Assembly (NCBI RefSeq): GCF_902506495.1
Contig: NZ_LR733263.1
Location: 1-64,000, forward strand
DNA from: Pseudomonas sp. 8O
GTDB taxonomy: Bacteria > Pseudomonadota > Gammaproteobacteria > Pseudomonadales > Pseudomonadaceae
Direction: 5' to 3'
Length of the DNA stretch: 64,000 nt
In this document: positions 56,833-63,709 of the stretch, piece after piece
How positions within the stretch are numbered: position 1 is the first letter of the stretch
Layout: each line of letters starts with the position of its first letter
Notes under the pieces: generated by a model
Databases searched by the model: none
Told to the model about the DNA's origin: nothing
Seen by the model: the letters and a program-made list of their open reading frames with translations, nothing else
Position numbers and translations under genes: made by a program

Positions 56833-57807
56833 TTAGGCCGATCCTGCGAGATTCTTGCCCGATCCTGCGTGGCTGGGCTGGAAGCGTTCGGCCAGTTTGA
56901 CGATTTGCGCGCGCTCGGTGCGGATGAAGTCGACGAAGGCCTGCGCCACTGGCGACAGGCGCCTGCCACGGATATTCACCACGCACCAGCTGCGCTGCAG
57001 CGGCAGTTCGGCCACCGGCAGTTCGCGCAGCAGGCCATGCTGCAATTCCAGGCGCACAGCGTGGCGCGGCAGCAGGGCGATGCCGAGACCGGCCAGCACC
57101 GCTTCGCGCTGCGATTCCAGCGAACCGATTTCCAGGGTGCTCGGGAAGTGCGCACGTTTCTGATGGCAGTACTCCTCACAGGCGCGGCGGGTCCCCGAGC
57201 CGCTTTCGCGAATCAGCAGCGGGTAGGGCGTGAGGTCGTGCAACTGCAGGCTGTCCGCCTCGCACAGGGGATGATCCGGCGGCGCCACGGCAATGATTGG
57301 GTTGTTGAGGAAGGGCATGAAGTCCAGCGCCATGTCCTGTGGCACCTGGCTCATGATCATCAGGTCGTCGCGGCTCTGGGTCAGGCGACGCACCACCAGC
57401 GCGTGGTTGACCACCGTTAGGTTGAGGCTGACTTCCGGGTATTGGCGGCGAAATTCGGCGAACAGGTGGGGAATGAAATATTTCGCGCTGGATTCCACGC
57501 ACAGATTGAGCTGCCCCTGCAGCGAGCCCTGCAGGTCGGACAGCTGCATGTCGAGGCTTTCCAGGCGGCCGAAAATATCGCTGCTGGCGCGTTTGAGTGC
57601 CTCGGCGGCTTCGGTCAGGTAGAGCTTCTTGCCCACGTATTCGAACAACGGCTGGCCCACCAGCTCCTCCAGCTGACGAATCTGCAGGCTGACGGCGGGC
57701 TGGGTCAGTGACATCTCCTCGGCTGCGCGGCTGTAGGAGCCGTGTTCGCACACGGCACGGAACACCTGGAGCTGGCGCAAGGTCATGCGCAGCAGGGTTT
57801 TACGCAC
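56833..57807 (-). CDS. pycR: LysR-family regulator PycR
   Basis: A 324-residue LysR regulator. The helix-turn-helix is at about 8-68 (LQVFRAVCEHGSYSRAAEEMSLTQPAVSLQIRQLEELVGQPLFEY) and the effector domain covers about 95-300. GTG at 57807 has GAGGAC 8 bases before it; an ATG seven codons on is possible. It is divergent from pycA across a 154-bp gap containing a 20-bp perfect palindrome. The place matches P. aeruginosa pycR, which affects pyruvate carboxylase and virulence. The ligand is unknown. Confidence 0.9.
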   Translation of the reverse strand: MRKTLLRMTLRQLQVFRAVCEHGSYSRAAEEMSLTQPAVSLQIRQLEELVGQPLFEYVGKKLYLTEAAEALKRASSDIFGRLESLDMQLSDLQGSLQGQLNLCVESSAKYFIPHLFAEFRRQYPEVSLNLTVVNHALVVRRLTQSRDDLMIMSQVPQDMALDFMPFLNNPIIAVAPPDHPLCEADSLQLHDLTPYPLLIRESGSGTRRACEEYCHQKRAHFPSTLEIGSLESQREAVLAGLGIALLPRHAVRLELQHGLLRELPVAELPLQRSWCVVNIRGRRLSPVAQAFVDFIRTERAQIVKLAERFQPSHAGSGKNLAGSA

Positions 57808-57961: not shown

Positions 57962-59377
57962 GTGATAAGAAAAATACTGATCGCCAACCGTGGTGAGATT
58001 GCCGTCCGCATCGTGCGGGCCTGCGCCGAGATGGGCATCCGCTCGGTAGCGATCTACTCCGATGCGGACCGTCATGCCCTGCACGTCAAGCGTGCCGACG
58101 AGGCGCACAGCATTGGCGAAGATCCGCTGGCCGGCTATCTGAACCCGCGCAAGCTGGTCAATCTGGCCGTGGAAACCGGTTGCGACGCGCTGCATCCCGG
58201 TTACGGCTTTCTTTCCGAAAATGCCGAACTTGCAGAGATCTGCGCCGAGCGTGGCATCAAATTCATAGGGCCGAGCGCGGAAGTCATCCGCCGCATGGGC
58301 GACAAGACCGAAGCGCGCCGCAGCATGATCAAGGCCGGTGTACCGGTCACACCCGGTACTGAAGGCAACGTTGCCGACCTGGCTGAAGCCCTGCGTGAAG
58401 CCGAGCGCATCGGTTATCCGGTGATGCTCAAGGCCACCTCCGGTGGTGGCGGTCGCGGTATTCGTCGCTGCAACAGCCGCGAGGAGCTGGAGCAGGCCTA
58501 CCCGCGGGTCATCTCCGAGGCGACCAAGGCCTTCGGCAGTGCGGAAGTCTTCCTGGAAAAGTGCATCGTCAATCCCAAACACATCGAAGCGCAGATCCTC
58601 GCCGACAGCTTCGGTAACACCGTGCACCTGTACGAGCGCGATTGCTCGATCCAGCGTCGTAACCAGAAGCTCATCGAAATCGCCCCCAGCCCGCAGCTTA
58701 CCCCCGAGCAGCGTGCCTATATCGGCGACCTGGCTGTGCGCGCTGCGCAGGCCGTTGGGTACGAGAACGCCGGCACCGTGGAGTTCCTGCTCGCCGAAGG
58801 CGAGGTGTACTTCATGGAGATGAACACCCGGGTGCAGGTGGAGCACACCATCACCGAGGAAATCACCGGCATCGATATCGTCCGCGAGCAGATCCGCATC
58901 GCCAGCGGCCAGCCACTGTCGGTCAAGCAGGAAGACATCATCCACCGTGGATATGCCCTGCAGTTCCGCATCAATGCCGAGGACCCGAAGAACAACTTCC
59001 TGCCCTCGTTCGGCAAGATCACCCGTTACTACGCGCCCGGCGGCCCCGGCGTGCGCACCGACACGGCGATCTACACCGGCTACACCATTCCGCCCTATTA
59101 CGACTCGATGTGCCTGAAGCTGATCGTCTGGGCGCTGACCTGGGAAGAGGCAATGGACCGTGGCCTGCGCGCGCTGGACGACATGCGCGTGCAGGGCGTG
59201 CGCACCACCGCGCCCTATTACCAGGAAATTCTGCGTAATCCGGAATTCCGTAGCGGCCAGTTCAACACCAGCTTCGTCGAAAGCCACCCAGAACTGACCC
59301 AGTACTCGATCAAGCGCAACCCGTCGCACCTGGCCATCGCCATCGCCACCGCCATCGCTGCCCACGCGGGCCTGTAG
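57962..59377 (+). CDS. pycA: Pyruvate carboxylase subunit A (biotin carboxylase)
   Basis: A 471-residue ATP-grasp biotin carboxylase. It uses bicarbonate and ATP to carboxylate biotin carried by the B subunit. The start is GTG at 57962 (GAGGA before it), giving IRKILIANRGEIAVRI. ATP-grasp runs are KATSGGGGRGIRR (about 157-170), EKCIVNPKHIEAQIL and EMNTRVQVEHTITEE. The partner gene starts 8 bases after its stop. This two-subunit form is typical of pseudomonads. Confidence 0.95.
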   Translation: MIRKILIANRGEIAVRIVRACAEMGIRSVAIYSDADRHALHVKRADEAHSIGEDPLAGYLNPRKLVNLAVETGCDALHPGYGFLSENAELAEICAERGIKFIGPSAEVIRRMGDKTEARRSMIKAGVPVTPGTEGNVADLAEALREAERIGYPVMLKATSGGGGRGIRRCNSREELEQAYPRVISEATKAFGSAEVFLEKCIVNPKHIEAQILADSFGNTVHLYERDCSIQRRNQKLIEIAPSPQLTPEQRAYIGDLAVRAAQAVGYENAGTVEFLLAEGEVYFMEMNTRVQVEHTITEEITGIDIVREQIRIASGQPLSVKQEDIIHRGYALQFRINAEDPKNNFLPSFGKITRYYAPGGPGVRTDTAIYTGYTIPPYYDSMCLKLIVWALTWEEAMDRGLRALDDMRVQGVRTTAPYYQEILRNPEFRSGQFNTSFVESHPELTQYSIKRNPSHLAIAIATAIAAHAGL

Positions 59378-59385
59378 GGGACATC

Positions 59386-61197
59386 ATGAGCAAGAAGATC
59401 ACCGTTACCGATACCGTCCTGCGCGATGCCCACCAGTCGCTGCTGGCCACGCGCATGCGCACCGAAGACATGCTGCCGATCTGCGACAAGCTCGACCGCG
59501 TCGGCTACTGGTCGCTGGAAGTCTGGGGTGGCGCCACCTTCGACTCGTGCGTGCGCTTTCTCAAGGAAGACCCGTGGGAGCGCCTGCGCCAGCTCAAGGC
59601 GGCGCTGCCCAACACCCGCCTGCAGATGCTTCTGCGCGGGCAGAATCTGCTTGGCTACCGCCACTACAGCGATGATGTGGTCAAGGCCTTCGTGGCCAAG
59701 GCGGCGGTCAATGGCATCGACGTGTTCCGCATCTTCGACGCGATGAACGACGTGCGTAACCTGCGCGTGGCCATCGAGGCAGTGAAGGCTGCCGGCAAGC
59801 ACGCCCAGGGCACCATCGCCTATACCACCAGCCCGGTGCACACCACCGAGGCCTTCGTCGCCCAGGCCAAGGCCATGCAGGCGATGGGTATCGACTCCAT
59901 CGCGATCAAGGACATGGCCGGCCTGCTCACGCCTTACGCCACCTTTGCGCTGGTCAAGGCACTGAAGAGCGAAGTCGACCTGCCGGTATTCATCCATAGC
60001 CACGATACGGCCGGTCTCGGTTCGATGTGCCAGCTCAAGGCCATCGAAGCGGGTGCCGACCATATCGACACCGCTATCTCCAGCCTGGCCTGGGGCACCA
60101 GCCATCCGGGTACCGAGTCGATGGTCGCCGCGCTCAAGGGCAGCGAGTTCGACACCGGCCTCGATCTGGAGCTGATCCAGGAGATCGGCATGTACTTCCA
60201 TGCAGTGCGCAAGAAGTACCACCAGTTCGAGAGCGAGTTCACCGGCGTTGATACCCGCGTGCAGGTCAATCAGGTGCCGGGCGGGATGATTTCCAACCTG
60301 GCCAACCAGCTCAAGGAACAGGGCGCGCTGAACCGCATGAACGAAGTGCTGGAAGAGATTCCGCGCGTGCGTGCCGACCTCGGCTTCCCACCGTTGGTTA
60401 CGCCGACCTCGCAGATTGTCGGCACCCAGGCGTTCTTCAACGTGCTGGCCGGCGAGCGCTACAAGACCATCACCAACGAGGTGAAGCTGTACCTGCAGGG
60501 CCGCTACGGCAAGGCGCCGGGCAAGGTCGACGAGCAACTGCGCAAGCAGGCCATCGGCAGCGAAGAAGTGATTGACGTACGCCCGGCCGACCTGCTCAAG
60601 CCCGAGTTGGCGCGCCTGCGTGAAGAGATCGGCAGCCTGGCCAAGTCCGAAGAGGACGTGCTGACCTTCGCCATGTTCCCCGATATCGGGCGCAAGTTCC
60701 TCGAAGAGCGCGCGGCCGGCACCCTCAAGCCGGAAGAACTGCTGCCCATGCCGAACGGTCAGGGCAAGGCCGCGCCGGTGGGTGGCGAAGGCGTGCCGAC
60801 CGAGTTCGTGGTCGACGTGCATGGCGAAAGCTACCGCGTGGACATCACCGGTGTGGGCGTCAAGGGCGACGGCAAGCGCCACTTCTACCTGTCCATCGAC
60901 GGCATGCCGGAAGAAGTGGTGTTCGAGGCGCTCAATGAATACGTCGCAGGCGCCGCTGGCAAGCGCAAGCAGGCCGGTGCACCGGGCGACGTGTCCACCA
61001 CCATGCCGGGCAACATCGTCGATGTGCTGGTCAAGGAAGGTGACACGGTCAAGGCTGGTCAGGCGGTGCTGATCACCGAAGCAATGAAGATGGAAACCGA
61101 AGTGCAGGCGCCGATTGCCGGTACCGTCAAGGCCGTTCACGTGGCCAAGGGCGACCGCGTCAATCCGGGCGAAGTACTGGTGGAAATCGAAGGTTAA
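59386..61197 (+). CDS. oadA: Pyruvate carboxylase subunit B (carboxyltransferase and biotin carrier)
   Basis: A 603-residue oadA-type subunit. The carboxyltransferase domain starts VTDTVLRDAHQSLLATRMR (about 7-25), and HSHDTAGLG holds metal-binding histidines near 205-213. The C-terminal biotinyl domain ends with ITEAMKMETE, with the biotinylated lysine about 15 residues before the end of the module. With PycA it makes oxaloacetate from pyruvate. It is also annotated as oxaloacetate decarboxylase alpha, but the pycA partner and absence of oadB/oadG favour pyruvate carboxylase. Its terminator is at 61205-61262. Confidence 0.95.
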   Translation: MSKKITVTDTVLRDAHQSLLATRMRTEDMLPICDKLDRVGYWSLEVWGGATFDSCVRFLKEDPWERLRQLKAALPNTRLQMLLRGQNLLGYRHYSDDVVKAFVAKAAVNGIDVFRIFDAMNDVRNLRVAIEAVKAAGKHAQGTIAYTTSPVHTTEAFVAQAKAMQAMGIDSIAIKDMAGLLTPYATFALVKALKSEVDLPVFIHSHDTAGLGSMCQLKAIEAGADHIDTAISSLAWGTSHPGTESMVAALKGSEFDTGLDLELIQEIGMYFHAVRKKYHQFESEFTGVDTRVQVNQVPGGMISNLANQLKEQGALNRMNEVLEEIPRVRADLGFPPLVTPTSQIVGTQAFFNVLAGERYKTITNEVKLYLQGRYGKAPGKVDEQLRKQAIGSEEVIDVRPADLLKPELARLREEIGSLAKSEEDVLTFAMFPDIGRKFLEERAAGTLKPEELLPMPNGQGKAAPVGGEGVPTEFVVDVHGESYRVDITGVGVKGDGKRHFYLSIDGMPEEVVFEALNEYVAGAAGKRKQAGAPGDVSTTMPGNIVDVLVKEGDTVKAGQAVLITEAMKMETEVQAPIAGTVKAVHVAKGDRVNPGEVLVEIEG

Positions 61198-61615
61198 CCT
61201 CTATGGAGCCCGGCCTGTTGGATGGGCAAGTTTGACGGGGCGTAACCCGGGCTCCTTTTTTATTCAGCGCCACGGCGCAGGTTTGTCCCGGGGGCCGCGA
61301 GGCTCCCTTTTTTTGCACGGCACATCCATGTGCTTCACCCCTCGGCGGCCCCGCGCAAAATGCTAACGGCGTTTGTGCGACTCGCCAGCGCGGGGGCAGC
61401 CGGGCATGTCGGCTAAGCTTTTCGGCCATGCCCCGGCGTTTCGCCTTCGTGGCGAGGCAAAGCAGGGCGATCAGCACCGCCTTGTGCCGGGGTATGGCCC
61501 TTTCCTTTGCGTGTACGTGGCCGTCCGGGTGGGGTGCGCCGTGCGCACCGGGGCGGGTGGTGAACAGTGGCAGGCGTGCACAGCGCACCCTGAGAAGCAG
61601 GGGAGGTGAACTGAG
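61198..61615. other. Intergenic region between oadA and the bicarbonate permease gene
   Basis: This 418-bp gap has no gene I can support. It begins with the oadA terminator and contains a partial family A repeat (GGGGTGCGCCGTGCGCACCG, 61531-61550) and a second weaker dyad with an isolated T run near 61301. A strong ribosome-binding site (GGGGAGG) for the next gene lies near 61600. Confidence 0.6.
61205..61262 (+). terminator. Rho-independent terminator of pycA-oadA
   Basis: GGAGCCCGG (61205-61213) pairs with CCGGGCTCC (61247-61255) across a 33-base loop and is followed by seven T. The long loop is unusual but the T run is clear. Confidence 0.8.
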
Positions 61616-62557
61616 GTGGGTCTGGATCCGGTGGTGCTGTTTTTCGTCTTCGGCCTGGTCGCCGGCCTGCTCAAGAGTGAGCTGAAGTTGCCGGCGGCGC
61701 TGTACGAGACGCTGTCGATCATTCTCTTGCTGGCCATCGGTCTGCACGGCGGTGTGGAGCTGGCACAGCAGGCCAGCCTGCAGCTGCTCGGTCAGTCGGC
61801 GCTGGTACTGGCGCTCGGCATGCTGCTGCCGATCCTGGCGTTTGTCCTGTTGCGCGGCCTGCGCTTCGACCGCGTCAATGCTGCGGCGGTGGCGGCGCAC
61901 TACGGTTCGGTCAGCGCCGGTACCTTCGCCGTGGTGGTGGCCTACATGCTGGCCAAGGGCATCGAGTTCGAGAGTTACATGCCGCTGTTCGTGGCCATCC
62001 TGGAGATTCCAGCGATCCTGGTCGGTATCGTCCTGGCCAAGGGCATTTCGCGCGAGACGCACTGGGGCGAACTGGGCCGCGAGATCTTCCTGGGCAAGAG
62101 CATCATGCTGCTGCTCGGCGGCCTGGTGATCGGCGCGATCGCCGGCAAGGAGGCGATCAAGCCGCTGGAGCCGCTGTACACCAGCATGTTCAAGCCGGTG
62201 CTGGCGTTCTTTCTGCTGGAGATGGGCCTGATCGCCTCCGGCCAGCTCGGTGCGCTGAAGCAGTTCGGTGTGCGCCTGGCGGCCTTCGCCCTGCTGATGC
62301 CGCTGCTCGGTGCGTTGATCGGCGCCTTGCTGGCGCGCTTCATGGGCCTGAGCCTGGGTGGCACGGCGATGCTTGCCACGCTCGCGGCCTCGGCGTCCTA
62401 TATCGCGGTGCCGGCGGCCATGCGCCTGGCCTTGCCCGAGGCCAACCCATCGCTGTCGCTGACCGCCTCGCTGGGCATCACCTTCCCATTCAATATCCTG
62501 ATCGGCATTCCGCTCTACCTGGCGCTGGCCGAACGACTGATCGCCTGGGGGTTCTGA
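61616..62557 (+). CDS. sbtA: Sodium-dependent bicarbonate permease, SbtA family
   Basis: A 313-residue SbtA-family (formerly DUF897) membrane permease with about ten helices in two related halves. The substrate region shows VAAHYGSVSAGTFAVVVAYM near 91-110, and a matching half has TAMLATLAASASYIAVPAAMRLALPEANPSLSLTASLGITFPFNI. SbtA proteins of cyanobacteria import bicarbonate with sodium. Start is GTG at 61616 with GGGGAGG before it. The PII-like gene begins one base after the stop, as in sbtAB pairs. It lies next to pyruvate carboxylase, a bicarbonate user. Confidence 0.92.
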   Translation: MGLDPVVLFFVFGLVAGLLKSELKLPAALYETLSIILLLAIGLHGGVELAQQASLQLLGQSALVLALGMLLPILAFVLLRGLRFDRVNAAAVAAHYGSVSAGTFAVVVAYMLAKGIEFESYMPLFVAILEIPAILVGIVLAKGISRETHWGELGREIFLGKSIMLLLGGLVIGAIAGKEAIKPLEPLYTSMFKPVLAFFLLEMGLIASGQLGALKQFGVRLAAFALLMPLLGALIGALLARFMGLSLGGTAMLATLAASASYIAVPAAMRLALPEANPSLSLTASLGITFPFNILIGIPLYLALAERLIAWGF

Positions 62558-62558
62558 G

Positions 62559-62861
62559 ATGAACGCACATAGCCGCACCCTGCTCACCGTGATCTGCGAG
62601 GCGGCGTTGGAGAAGCGCCTACTGGCCGATCTGGAAGCGCTCGGCGCACCCGGCTGGACCATCTCCGACGCCCGTGGCCGCGGCCACCGTGGCGTGCGCA
62701 GCGCCGGCTGGGACACCGAAGGCAACATCCGCCTGGAAATCATCTGCAACCGCGAATTGGCCGAGCGCATCGCCGAGCATCTGCAGGCGCGCTACTACGA
62801 CCACTTCGCCATGGTCTGCTACCTGGCGCAGGTGGAAGTGCTGCGTGGGGAGAAGTTCTAA
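62559..62861 (+). CDS. sbtB: SbtB-like PII-family regulator
   Basis: A 100-residue PII-fold protein that resembles cyanobacterial SbtB along its length: GAPGWTISDARGRGHRGVRSAGW with a T-loop-like region (about 29-52), NIRLEIICNRELAERIAEHL (about 56-75), and a YYDHFAMVCYLAQVEVLRGEKF ending. SbtB binds adenyl nucleotides including cAMP and gates SbtA. The cyanobacterial C-terminal CxxxxC-type redox loop is missing, since the chain ends at the core strand. The gene is one base downstream of sbtA, so they are co-translated. Confidence 0.88.
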   Translation: MNAHSRTLLTVICEAALEKRLLADLEALGAPGWTISDARGRGHRGVRSAGWDTEGNIRLEIICNRELAERIAEHLQARYYDHFAMVCYLAQVEVLRGEKF

Positions 62862-62912
62862 GGCGCATCAGGGGACGGAGCCGCCTGGGCCGTGAAACTC
62901 TGGGAGGAGCAT

Positions 62913-62971
62913 CGCGGCTAAAGCCCCTCCCACAATACCCACCGTGACCCTGGGAGGGGCTTTAGCCGCGA
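62913..62971. repeat. REP-like inverted pair, family C
   Basis: CGCGGCTAAAGCCCCTCCCA (62914-62933) faces GGGAGGGGCTTTAGCCGCGA (62952-62971). It lies between the convergent sbtB-like and carbonic anhydrase genes and is the main structure in that 119-bp gap. Confidence 0.8.
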
Positions 62972-62980
62972 GCCTGCGTA

Positions 62981-63709
62981 TCAGCTTTGTGGAAAACGCG
63001 CGCGTGGCGTCGCCATTGGAATCTTGTCGCCGTCGAGCGGCAGGAAGCTGCCCAACTCTGCATCGTAGGCCTTGATCTGGCTGGTTTCGATGTCATACAC
63101 CCAGCCATGGATGAACAGCTGGCCGCGCGCCAGTTTGGCCGCCACCGACGGGTGAGTACACAGGTGGTTGAGCTGCGCCACCACGTTCTCTTCGGTGAGT
63201 ACGCTCAGGGCTTCCTTGTCGTCGCTGCAGTTGCAGTTCTCTGCCACTACGCTGCGCGCCACCTCGGCATGACGTAGCCAGGCTTTTACAGTGGGCATGG
63301 TTTCCAGTGAGGCCGGGTTGAGCACCGCCTTCATCGCGCCGCAGTCGGAGTGGCCGCAGATGACGATGTGTTGCACGCCCAGGGCCATCACCGCGTACTC
63401 GATGGCGGTGGAGACGCCGCCCATCATCTGCCCGTAGGCCGGCACCACGTTACCGACGTTGCGGTTGACGAACAGGTCGCCAGGCGAGCTCTGGGTGATC
63501 AGCTCCGGCACCACGCGCGAGTCGGCGCAGGTGATGAACATGGCGCGTGGGTTCTGGGCGGTGGCGAGCTTCTTGAACAGTTCTTCCTGCTGCGGGAAGA
63601 CCTCGTTGCGAAAGCGCTTGAAGCCATCGACGATGCTGTGCAGCGCCTGCTCGGCGGTTTCGTTGCCCTCGTGGACCTGAAGCGGAATCACCTGATGTTT
63701 GTAAGGCAT
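62981..63709 (-). CDS. Beta-class carbonic anhydrase
   Basis: A 242-residue beta carbonic anhydrase, a zinc enzyme interconverting CO2 and bicarbonate. Zinc ligands are Cys61, His120 and Cys123 (CADSRV and ICGHSDCG), and the Asp63-Arg65 dyad that activates water is intact. No signal peptide is seen, so it is cytoplasmic. It faces the sbtA-sbtB pair across a REP hairpin. Together these would raise cytoplasmic bicarbonate or recover leaked CO2. It needs zinc, while the gamma-type enzyme at 3385-3945 may replace it when zinc is short. Confidence 0.94.
   Translation of the reverse strand: MPYKHQVIPLQVHEGNETAEQALHSIVDGFKRFRNEVFPQQEELFKKLATAQNPRAMFITCADSRVVPELITQSSPGDLFVNRNVGNVVPAYGQMMGGVSTAIEYAVMALGVQHIVICGHSDCGAMKAVLNPASLETMPTVKAWLRHAEVARSVVAENCNCSDDKEALSVLTEENVVAQLNHLCTHPSVAAKLARGQLFIHGWVYDIETSQIKAYDAELGSFLPLDGDKIPMATPRARFPQS

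Follow-up and report, generated by a model that had tools for sequence, protein, structure and literature searches.

Organization of the locus

The window analyzed here is a 64,000-nucleotide stretch of Pseudomonas sp. 8O (contig NZ_LR733263.1 of assembly GCF_902506495.1, positions 1 to 64,000), and the system under study is its gene pair sbtA-sbtB (sbtAB), which encodes an SbtA-family permease and a PII-like protein and follows the genes of a two-subunit pyruvate carboxylase, pycA-pycB (Table 1). The stop codon of sbtA (TGA) ends at 62557 and the start codon of sbtB (ATG) begins at 62559, leaving 1 base between them; 418 bp separate pycB from sbtA, and 119 bp lie between sbtB and a convergent gene for a beta-carbonic anhydrase (beta-CA). 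This layout, including the 1-base and 418-bp spacings, is exactly as given in the preliminary description of the window. Pfam searches assign the sbtB product to PF00543 (P-II; E 6.5e-23) and the convergent gene product to PF00484 (Pro_CA; E 7.1e-51, 173 bits).

Table 1. Features of the pyc-sbtAB region (window coordinates)
Feature	Coordinates	Strand	Description
LysR-type regulator gene	56833-57807	-	divergent from pycA
pycA	57962-59377	+	GTG start, 471 aa; biotin carboxylase (alpha) subunit of two-subunit pyruvate carboxylase
pycB	59386-61197	+	carboxyltransferase and biotin carrier subunit; its translation contains EAMKME and HGE
Terminator-like hairpin and T-run, 3' of pycB	61205-61261	+	
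Second terminator-like hairpin and T-run	61290-61314	+	
sbtA	61616-62557	+	GTG start, 313 aa; Sbt_1 family, Na+/bicarbonate-type symporter by family
sbtB	62559-62861	+	100 aa; PII-type signalling protein (SbtB-like), PF00543
beta-CA gene	62981-63709	-	242 aa; convergent with sbtB; PF00484; neighbor, not core

The carboxylase genes had been described as pycA-oadA, of which the first name stands and the second does not. The product of the second gene has its best NCBIfam match in pyruvate carboxylase subunit B (PRK09282, 945.9 bits), and it also exceeds the cut-off of the oadA model TIGR01108 (851.2 bits). Its identification as an oxaloacetate decarboxylase subunit was rejected on the higher PRK09282 score, the neighboring pycA and sbtA genes, and the absence of oadB and oadG beside it; the gene is pycB. 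A separate set for a Na+-pumping oxaloacetate decarboxylase (oadG-oadA-oadB), with OAD_beta and OAD_gamma matches beside the alpha subunit, is found on another contig (C2) of the window's genome. PycA has an Ala-rich C-terminal end, and PycB carries the HGE and biotin motifs. Judged by these features, the enzyme is a two-subunit pyruvate carboxylase, a type in which the alpha subunit, ~471 aa long, ends in a hydrophobic Ala-rich helix and the beta subunit carries HGE and the biotin motif (PMC5059739). The order LysR-pycA-pycB also occurs in 19 of 20 hand-picked loci that lack sbtA. The best NCBIfam model for the LysR-type protein is CbbR, the RuBisCO-operon regulator, at 227.8 bits and thus far under the cut-off of 450; in P. 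aeruginosa, the regulator PycR is encoded next to the pyc operon (PMC5059739).

Conservation of the pyc-sbtAB linkage

The adjacency of sbtA and the carboxylase genes, which the preliminary description had noted at a single locus, is conserved, and the outcome named there as refuting its interpretation, a linkage not kept across genomes, is not what the samples show. Among 199 evenly drawn Pseudomonas genomes (the genus sample), the Sbt_1 profile PF05982 matched 20 at E 0.001 and 19 above the cut-off, and 179 had no match. Of these 19, G052 has divergent copies alone, and the remaining 18, including the window's genome, hold an orthologue of the window's sbtA, which is accompanied by sbtB in 18/18 and directly preceded by pycB in 17/18. 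A second sample, the named loci, comprises the best 80 of 498 relatives among the matches listed; it leans towards close relatives, with several near-identical strains, and includes two contigs of one assembly (L084 and L088). In these loci, sbtB follows sbtA in 80/80, pycB precedes it in 72/80, pycA is also present in 68/80, and the full order lysR-pycA-pycB-sbtA-sbtB is found in 67/80. The eight loci without pycB are five of Pseudohongiella type (L122, L123, L126, L128, and L131), one at a contig edge (L084), L078, and L130. The exception in the genus sample (G069) encodes an SbtA identical to that of L078, and by this identity the two are probably one case. According to their record titles, the carriers include Pseudomonas species (e.g., P. 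oleovorans, P. alcaliphila, P. alcaligenes, and P. anguilliseptica), Stutzerimonas, and Halopseudomonas.

A PYC_OADA gene is present in all 199 genomes of the genus sample and sbtA in few of them; the transporter is therefore an add-on of some lineages. A second PYC_OADA gene occurs in 17/18 orthologue carriers and in 7/180 other genomes (G052 omitted from both counts, kinship uncorrected), and in the window's genome it is that of the Na+-pumping oxaloacetate decarboxylase. The SbtA proteins of the two divergent sbtAB copies of G052 (L220:4053-9739 and L221) share 55% and 59% identity with that of the window. In one of them, sbtA is split over two frames; a Tn3-type transposase gene lies near the L220 copy, and in L221 a gene comparable in size and position follows. 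These copies are perhaps a mobile form.

Neighbors of sbtA in other lineages

The partner of sbtA differs between lineages. In a class-level sample of 369 genomes, 54 had a PF05982 match above the cut-off, and the 53 besides the window's contain 57 sbtA places. RuBisCO was counted only from strong matches, weak or form-IV-like ones being dropped (G456, G270, and G242 thus count as RuBisCO-free), which leaves 36/53 genomes with RuBisCO; two beta-CA matches under the cut-off (G520 and G304) were likewise left out. Of the 57 places, 24 have a RuBisCO gene no more than 15 kb away, and one has a beta-CA gene at such a distance. A PYC_OADA gene lies within 15 kb of sbtA in 0/57, contig ends limiting some places, though 32/53 genomes own one. 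A tblastn search with the window's pycA and pycB of stretches up to ~9 kb on each side of these places found no adjoining pyc gene, the sole weak match of pycA (22%, in L163) being purK. Among the 398 genomes of a phylum-level sample, all 55 with PF05982 above the cut-off were checked for PYC_OADA, which directly adjoined sbtA in the window's genus and its family (G912 and G839) and nowhere else. Since 24 of the 57 class-level places are near RuBisCO and none is near PYC_OADA, pyruvate carboxylase is a partner of sbtA specific to this family, and elsewhere sbtA is often found beside RuBisCO. Other RuBisCO-free sbtA loci have mixed neighbors: ten proteins scanned at six loci were a P-type ATPase, a Tn3 transposase, a chaperonin, PurE, PurK, an AMP-binding enzyme, a LysR protein, a CNNM protein, and two without a family.

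The genomes that carry the pyc-linked pair appear to be those of heterotrophs. No RuBisCO match (PF00016) was found in any of the 15 genomes tested (the window's, G000, and 14 others) out of the 19 Pseudomonas genomes with sbtA, which is in line with the earlier description of the host as a heterotroph. The accompanying idea that SbtA and SbtB are a cyanobacterial hallmark is not supported, in view of the 54/369 class-level genomes with PF05982 and of the literature, in which SbtA-like proteins of numerous heterotrophs have already been described (PMC10117731). In the available parts of the open-licence literature searched, no description was found of pyc-linked sbtAB in heterotrophs, of a link to purK, or of a bicarbonate transporter serving anaplerosis, and the portion seen of a Roseobacter paper (PMC5071866) names no SbtA.

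A further element, beyond those in the preliminary description, is the presence of purE-purK (purEK) next after sbtAB in 10/80 named loci. Four of these also have pyc upstream, giving the order lysR-pycA-pycB-sbtA-sbtB-purE-purK (Halopseudomonas L125 and L127, and the related metagenome-assembled genomes L124 and L132), and the others, the five Pseudohongiella-type loci and L130, lack pyc in the available flank. Pfam confirmed purE/purK in L131 and L127 and purE in L125; representative sbtA(B)-purEK stretches are L131:10001-12917, L127:6747-12998, L163:7459-10463, and L218:7477-10075. In an SbtA tree of 84 rows, the purEK-linked and Pseudomonas proteins fall together in a single 24-row clade supported at 100/100. 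On other SbtA branches, the arrangements purK-purE-sbtA-sbtB (L163), sbtA-purE-purK with an ATGA stop/start overlap (L218), and a looser sbtAB-purEK (L190) were observed. PurK consumes ATP. It also uses HCO3- (PMC10880623), and the occurrence of purEK beside sbtAB in related lineages strengthens the view that sbtAB supplies bicarbonate to a carboxylase. Within Pseudomonas itself, purE and sbtA share a contig in G154 and G912, where they are 27-30 kb apart, and lie on different contigs in G000 and G839.

Properties of SbtA and SbtB

The window's SbtA matches PF05982 over profile positions 1-307 of 308 (E 1.7e-111, 372.9 bits). Its AlphaFold2 model has a mean predicted local distance difference test (pLDDT) score of 89, and the top five Protein Data Bank (PDB) matches of the model are all SbtA structures (7egl, 8zor, 7egk, 7cyf, and 7cye), with template modeling (TM) scores of 0.82-0.90. 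By sequence and predicted fold, the protein is a member of the Sbt_1/SbtA family, and no claim is made to the cyanobacterial pocket subtype. In the cyanobacterial protein Slr1512, the docked bicarbonate is contacted by Ser114, Tyr140, Ser324, and Ser327, and Ala at any one of these positions lowers transport to 10-40% (PMC8352866). All 24 RuBisCO-linked SbtA proteins match the window's at Ser114, Ser324, Tyr325, and Ala327, and position 140 is Leu, Met, or Val, never Tyr; as aligned, the pocket is therefore of a proteobacterial type.

In SbtB, the equivalent of R43xxR46, the ATP-phosphate motif of Slr1513 (PMC10117731), is kept in the window's SbtB and in 77/81 rows of the alignment, to which one locus on a cut contig (L088) contributes no SbtB row; among the PII-like neighbors of RuBisCO-linked SbtA, the R43/R46 pair is present in 1/20. 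No Cys was found in the C-terminal tails of 79/79 SbtB proteins, where the CGPxGC R-loop would lie, and this motif was not treated as SbtB-defining because it is conserved only in some homologues (PMC8352866). With R43xxR46 kept and the tail Cys absent, adenylate sensing by SbtB is plausible, and the redox-controlled apyrase described for Slr1513 (PMC10117731) is not plausible for this protein. In sequence matches to the PDB, the best for the window's SbtB is TTHA0516 (2cz4; E 6.4e-25), and SbtB chains are also among the matches. The sole RuBisCO-linked locus whose PII-like protein has R43xxR46 is L171 (G262), and in the tree its SbtA is placed adjacent to the Pseudomonas/Pseudohongiella clade, the support being modest (89/74); L171 is possibly an intermediate.

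Position of the carbonic anhydrase

The translated beta-CA gene contains CADSR and HSDC, which we take to be the Cys-Asp-Arg and His-Cys zinc motifs of the family to which the enzyme is assigned. A linked beta-CA gene lies within 5 kb downstream of sbtAB in 29/80 named loci, at least 7 loci having short downstream flanks. Ten of these loci (P. oleovorans, P. alcaliphila, P. toyotomiensis, and others) have it convergent with sbtB. In the remaining 19, Stutzerimonas being frequent among them, it shares the strand of sbtB, and in three of the 19 (L114, L118, and L121) it lies 53-59 bp after that gene. In G012 and G078, the linked gene is the only beta-CA match of the genome. Two loci with PycA and PycB 97-98% identical to the window's (L231 and L241) have beta-CA adjoining pycB and no PF05982 match. 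The gap between these genes matches the window at both of its ends, next to pycB and next to the CA gene, and 44 bp of the window's pycB-sbtA gap survive in L241; these remnants, together with the wider distribution of sbtAB, suggest that sbtAB was lost in L231 and L241.

The preliminary description had made the carbonic anhydrase a part of the module. As an obligate third part it was rejected, being linked in a minority of loci, in two orientations, and beside pycB where sbtAB is lacking; it looks like a housekeeping enzyme retained near bicarbonate users. The module is thus sbtAB together with a bicarbonate-consuming carboxylase, and not sbtA-sbtB-CA. The same description had spoken of a carbon-concentrating device, a term that the evidence does not support: the RuBisCO that such a mechanism would serve is absent from the window's genome, and a carbonic anhydrase beside an importer would tend to dissipate bicarbonate. 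The window's beta-CA has no obvious signal sequence when judged by eye, which, for an enzyme encoded beside a bicarbonate importer, argues against bicarbonate concentration in the cytosol. The interval between sbtB and the beta-CA gene also contains an imperfect inverted repeat around GGGAGGGGCTTTAGCCGCG (window 62880-62980), which we take to resemble the repetitive extragenic palindromic (REP) elements of Pseudomonas.

Proposed bicarbonate supply to carboxylases in heterotrophs

The reading that we favor, and regard as fairly probable, is that SbtA is a Na+/bicarbonate importer, perhaps gated by SbtB according to adenylates, that feeds ATP-dependent carboxylases in heterotrophs. SbtA of the proteobacterial type would import bicarbonate at the expense of the Na+ gradient, and SbtB would act as a PII-like gate that most likely reads the adenylate pool (AMP/ATP/cyclic AMP) and plugs SbtA at low energy. 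In Pseudomonas, Stutzerimonas, and Halopseudomonas, the imported bicarbonate would go to pyruvate carboxylase, and PurK would receive it as well where purEK follows sbtAB. Such import would matter when CO2 diffusion and carbonic anhydrase fall short (e.g., at alkaline pH, low CO2, or high pyruvate flux). What the sequences show directly is the order of the genes and its conservation, the lack of RuBisCO, the protein family with its predicted fold, the type of pocket, and the terminator-like sites, whereas the substrate, its direction of transport, the gating, and the metabolic purpose are inferred. Of the earlier proposal of anaplerotic bicarbonate supply, this retains the supply itself, which is the most economical reading of the linkage, the lack of RuBisCO, and the purEK loci, and drops the role of the carbonic anhydrase and the notion of concentrating.

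A number of observations weigh against this reading. Most of the Pseudomonas genomes have no PF05982 match (179/199) and possess a PYC_OADA gene without the transporter, and sbtAB is missing from two close relatives (L231 and L241). A beta-CA is encoded in 199/199 genomes of the genus sample and could supply bicarbonate. Only two of the four Slr1512 contacts are kept in the window's SbtA (Ser114 and Ser324), Tyr140 being replaced by Val and Ser327 by Ala; most unlinked and RuBisCO-free SbtA proteins of the sample share this pocket type too, so that substrates are indistinguishable by the pocket, which, as far as alignment goes, lends no support to a change of substrate and yet offers no proof of bicarbonate. 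The T-loop of SbtB is ~4 residues shorter than that of Slr1513. For PEP (phosphoenolpyruvate) carboxylase, another bicarbonate user, coordinates compared by eye in 79 genomes (30 of the 53 class-level genomes, 48 further phylum-level genomes, and G000; 52 with a match) gave no same-contig pair with sbtA under ~56 kb. Strict family-specificity is qualified by G845, from another family of the same order, in which PYC_OADA lies ~14 kb from sbtA, within the 15-kb limit and non-adjacent. The purE link is rare outside its clade: a purE gene no more than 3 kb from sbtA was found in 3/53 class-level genomes (G338, G223, and G404), in 0/21 further gammaproteobacteria, and in 0/25 other proteobacteria (99 genomes in all, five without any purE match), the rough Poisson expectation for the 53 being 0.12, for a gene chosen after being seen.

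Transcription bears on the same question, as a terminator-like hairpin with a T-run lies in the pycB-sbtA gap in 60/72 loci and weighs against simple co-expression. Such sites were found in 4/360 shuffled gaps (five shuffles per gap, with only the single-base content kept), in 0/67 pycA-pycB gaps, and in 2/78 stretches after sbtB. They also follow pycB in 18 of the 20 hand-picked sbtA-less loci, so that the hairpin, as a sequence feature, is most likely the terminator of the pyc operon itself. In 13 of the 72 loci, the pycB-sbtA gap is 50-72 nucleotides (nt) and only 16-31 nt remain from the T-run to sbtA, a spacing that suggests read-through into sbtA. In the window, ~300 nt remain between the terminator and sbtA, leaving room for a promoter; a simple scan of the gap found no sigma-70-like promoter, with 0.3 expected by chance. 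The window's sbtAB would thus be transcribed by read-through, from a promoter in the 418-bp gap, or by both routes.

An operon terminator that belongs to pyc would also be expected if the importer met the bicarbonate need of the whole cell, or served pH/Na+ homeostasis in alkaline or saline habitats, with its place beside pyc merely inherited and without function. This explanation, which we consider unlikely without dismissing it, agrees with the names, if nothing else, of several carriers (P. alcaliphila, P. cuatrocienegasensis, and Halopseudomonas), which point to an alkaliphilic or saline character, and the excess of second PYC_OADA genes among carriers, uncorrected for kinship, may reflect a Na+-handling niche. 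It accounts poorly for a gene order kept across Pseudomonas, Stutzerimonas, and Halopseudomonas when the far side of sbtAB is variable (19 loci viewed), for the tight gaps that leave little space for a promoter of sbtA's own, and for the neighbors of sbtA elsewhere, often RuBisCO and sometimes PurEK, which like pyruvate carboxylase are all carboxylases of inorganic carbon.

The two altered pocket contacts raise the question of whether the permease carries another small anion, such as formate, pyruvate, or a monocarboxylate related to them, and perhaps does so in the outward direction. A Shewanella SbtA-family protein has been tied to formate tolerance, which a mutation in it confers, and docking was judged more consistent with export (PMC12093963), a finding that also counts against bicarbonate import. 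Nevertheless, the same pocket type is shared by 24/24 RuBisCO-linked SbtA proteins, and two Sbt proteins of the autotrophic proteobacterium Thiomicrospira pelophila, whose sequences are outside the pocket alignment, rescue carbonic anhydrase-less Escherichia coli at low CO2 (PMC12628692), making transport of another anion improbable. Least probable of all, and close to negligible, is an action of SbtB on pyruvate carboxylase itself, instead of or besides SbtA. The gene neighborhood would allow it, and in Bacillus subtilis pyruvate carboxylase is bound by DarB, a protein related to c-di-AMP (cyclic di-AMP) (PMC8822347); yet sbtB accompanies sbtA at every named locus, even in the Pseudohongiella-type loci with no pyc nearby, as expected of a partner of SbtA.

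A broader proposal, offered tentatively and held to be possible though open to considerable doubt, extends bicarbonate import for carboxylases to all of these settings. In it, SbtAB would be a general adenylate-gated bicarbonate supply, attached in each lineage to a different carboxylase: RuBisCO in autotrophs, pyruvate carboxylase in Pseudomonadaceae, and PurEK in Pseudohongiella and others. SbtB would match import, with its cost in Na+, to the ATP that pyruvate carboxylase and PurK require, purine synthesis would feed back on the adenylates read by SbtB, and the pyc terminator of the tight-gap loci might serve as a leaky valve that sets the ratio of transporter to carboxylase. Bicarbonate importers have been studied mostly within photosynthetic or chemolithotrophic carbon fixation. 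If the proposed supply is real, anaplerosis and purine synthesis are reasons for heterotrophs, too, to maintain a regulated import of bicarbonate, and what SbtA and SbtB do in organisms other than autotrophs becomes testable in easily grown bacteria, with a bearing on dark CO2 fixation by the heterotrophs of alkaline and saline waters.

Comparison with known systems

Of the characterized systems, the cyanobacterial pair Slr1512-Slr1513, a Na+/HCO3- symporter with its PII-like regulator, resembles the window's sbtAB in the pairing of the genes, the Pfam families, the predicted SbtA fold, the residues Ser114 and Ser324, and R43xxR46. It differs in that the window's SbtA is only ~31% identical to Slr1512 over the compared segments, has Tyr140 and Ser327 replaced, and, at 313 aa, has little of the stretch that spans residues 156 to 217 of the 374-aa chain; moreover, the window's genome has no RuBisCO, and its SbtB has no R-loop and a shorter T-loop. 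In the latter respects, SbtB is more like the Thermus PII-like protein TTHA0516, which has a T-loop of nearly equal length and no R-loop. The SbtA proteins of chemolithoautotrophic Proteobacteria (Thiomicrospira Sbt, Sbt-CS, and RuBisCO-linked SbtA) share the family, and the likeness of the pocket comes from the 24 RuBisCO-linked proteins, the Thiomicrospira sequences standing outside that alignment; there, however, the partner is RuBisCO and the PII-like neighbor is mostly of another type. The known two-subunit pyruvate carboxylase operon of Pseudomonas agrees with the window in subunit length, the Ala-rich C-terminal end, HGE, and the order LysR-pycA-pycB, although PycR of P. aeruginosa is described as encoded "immediately downstream" of its operon (PMC5059739), whereas the LysR gene of the window is divergent from pycA. 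What distinguishes the window from that operon is the addition of sbtAB behind the terminator.

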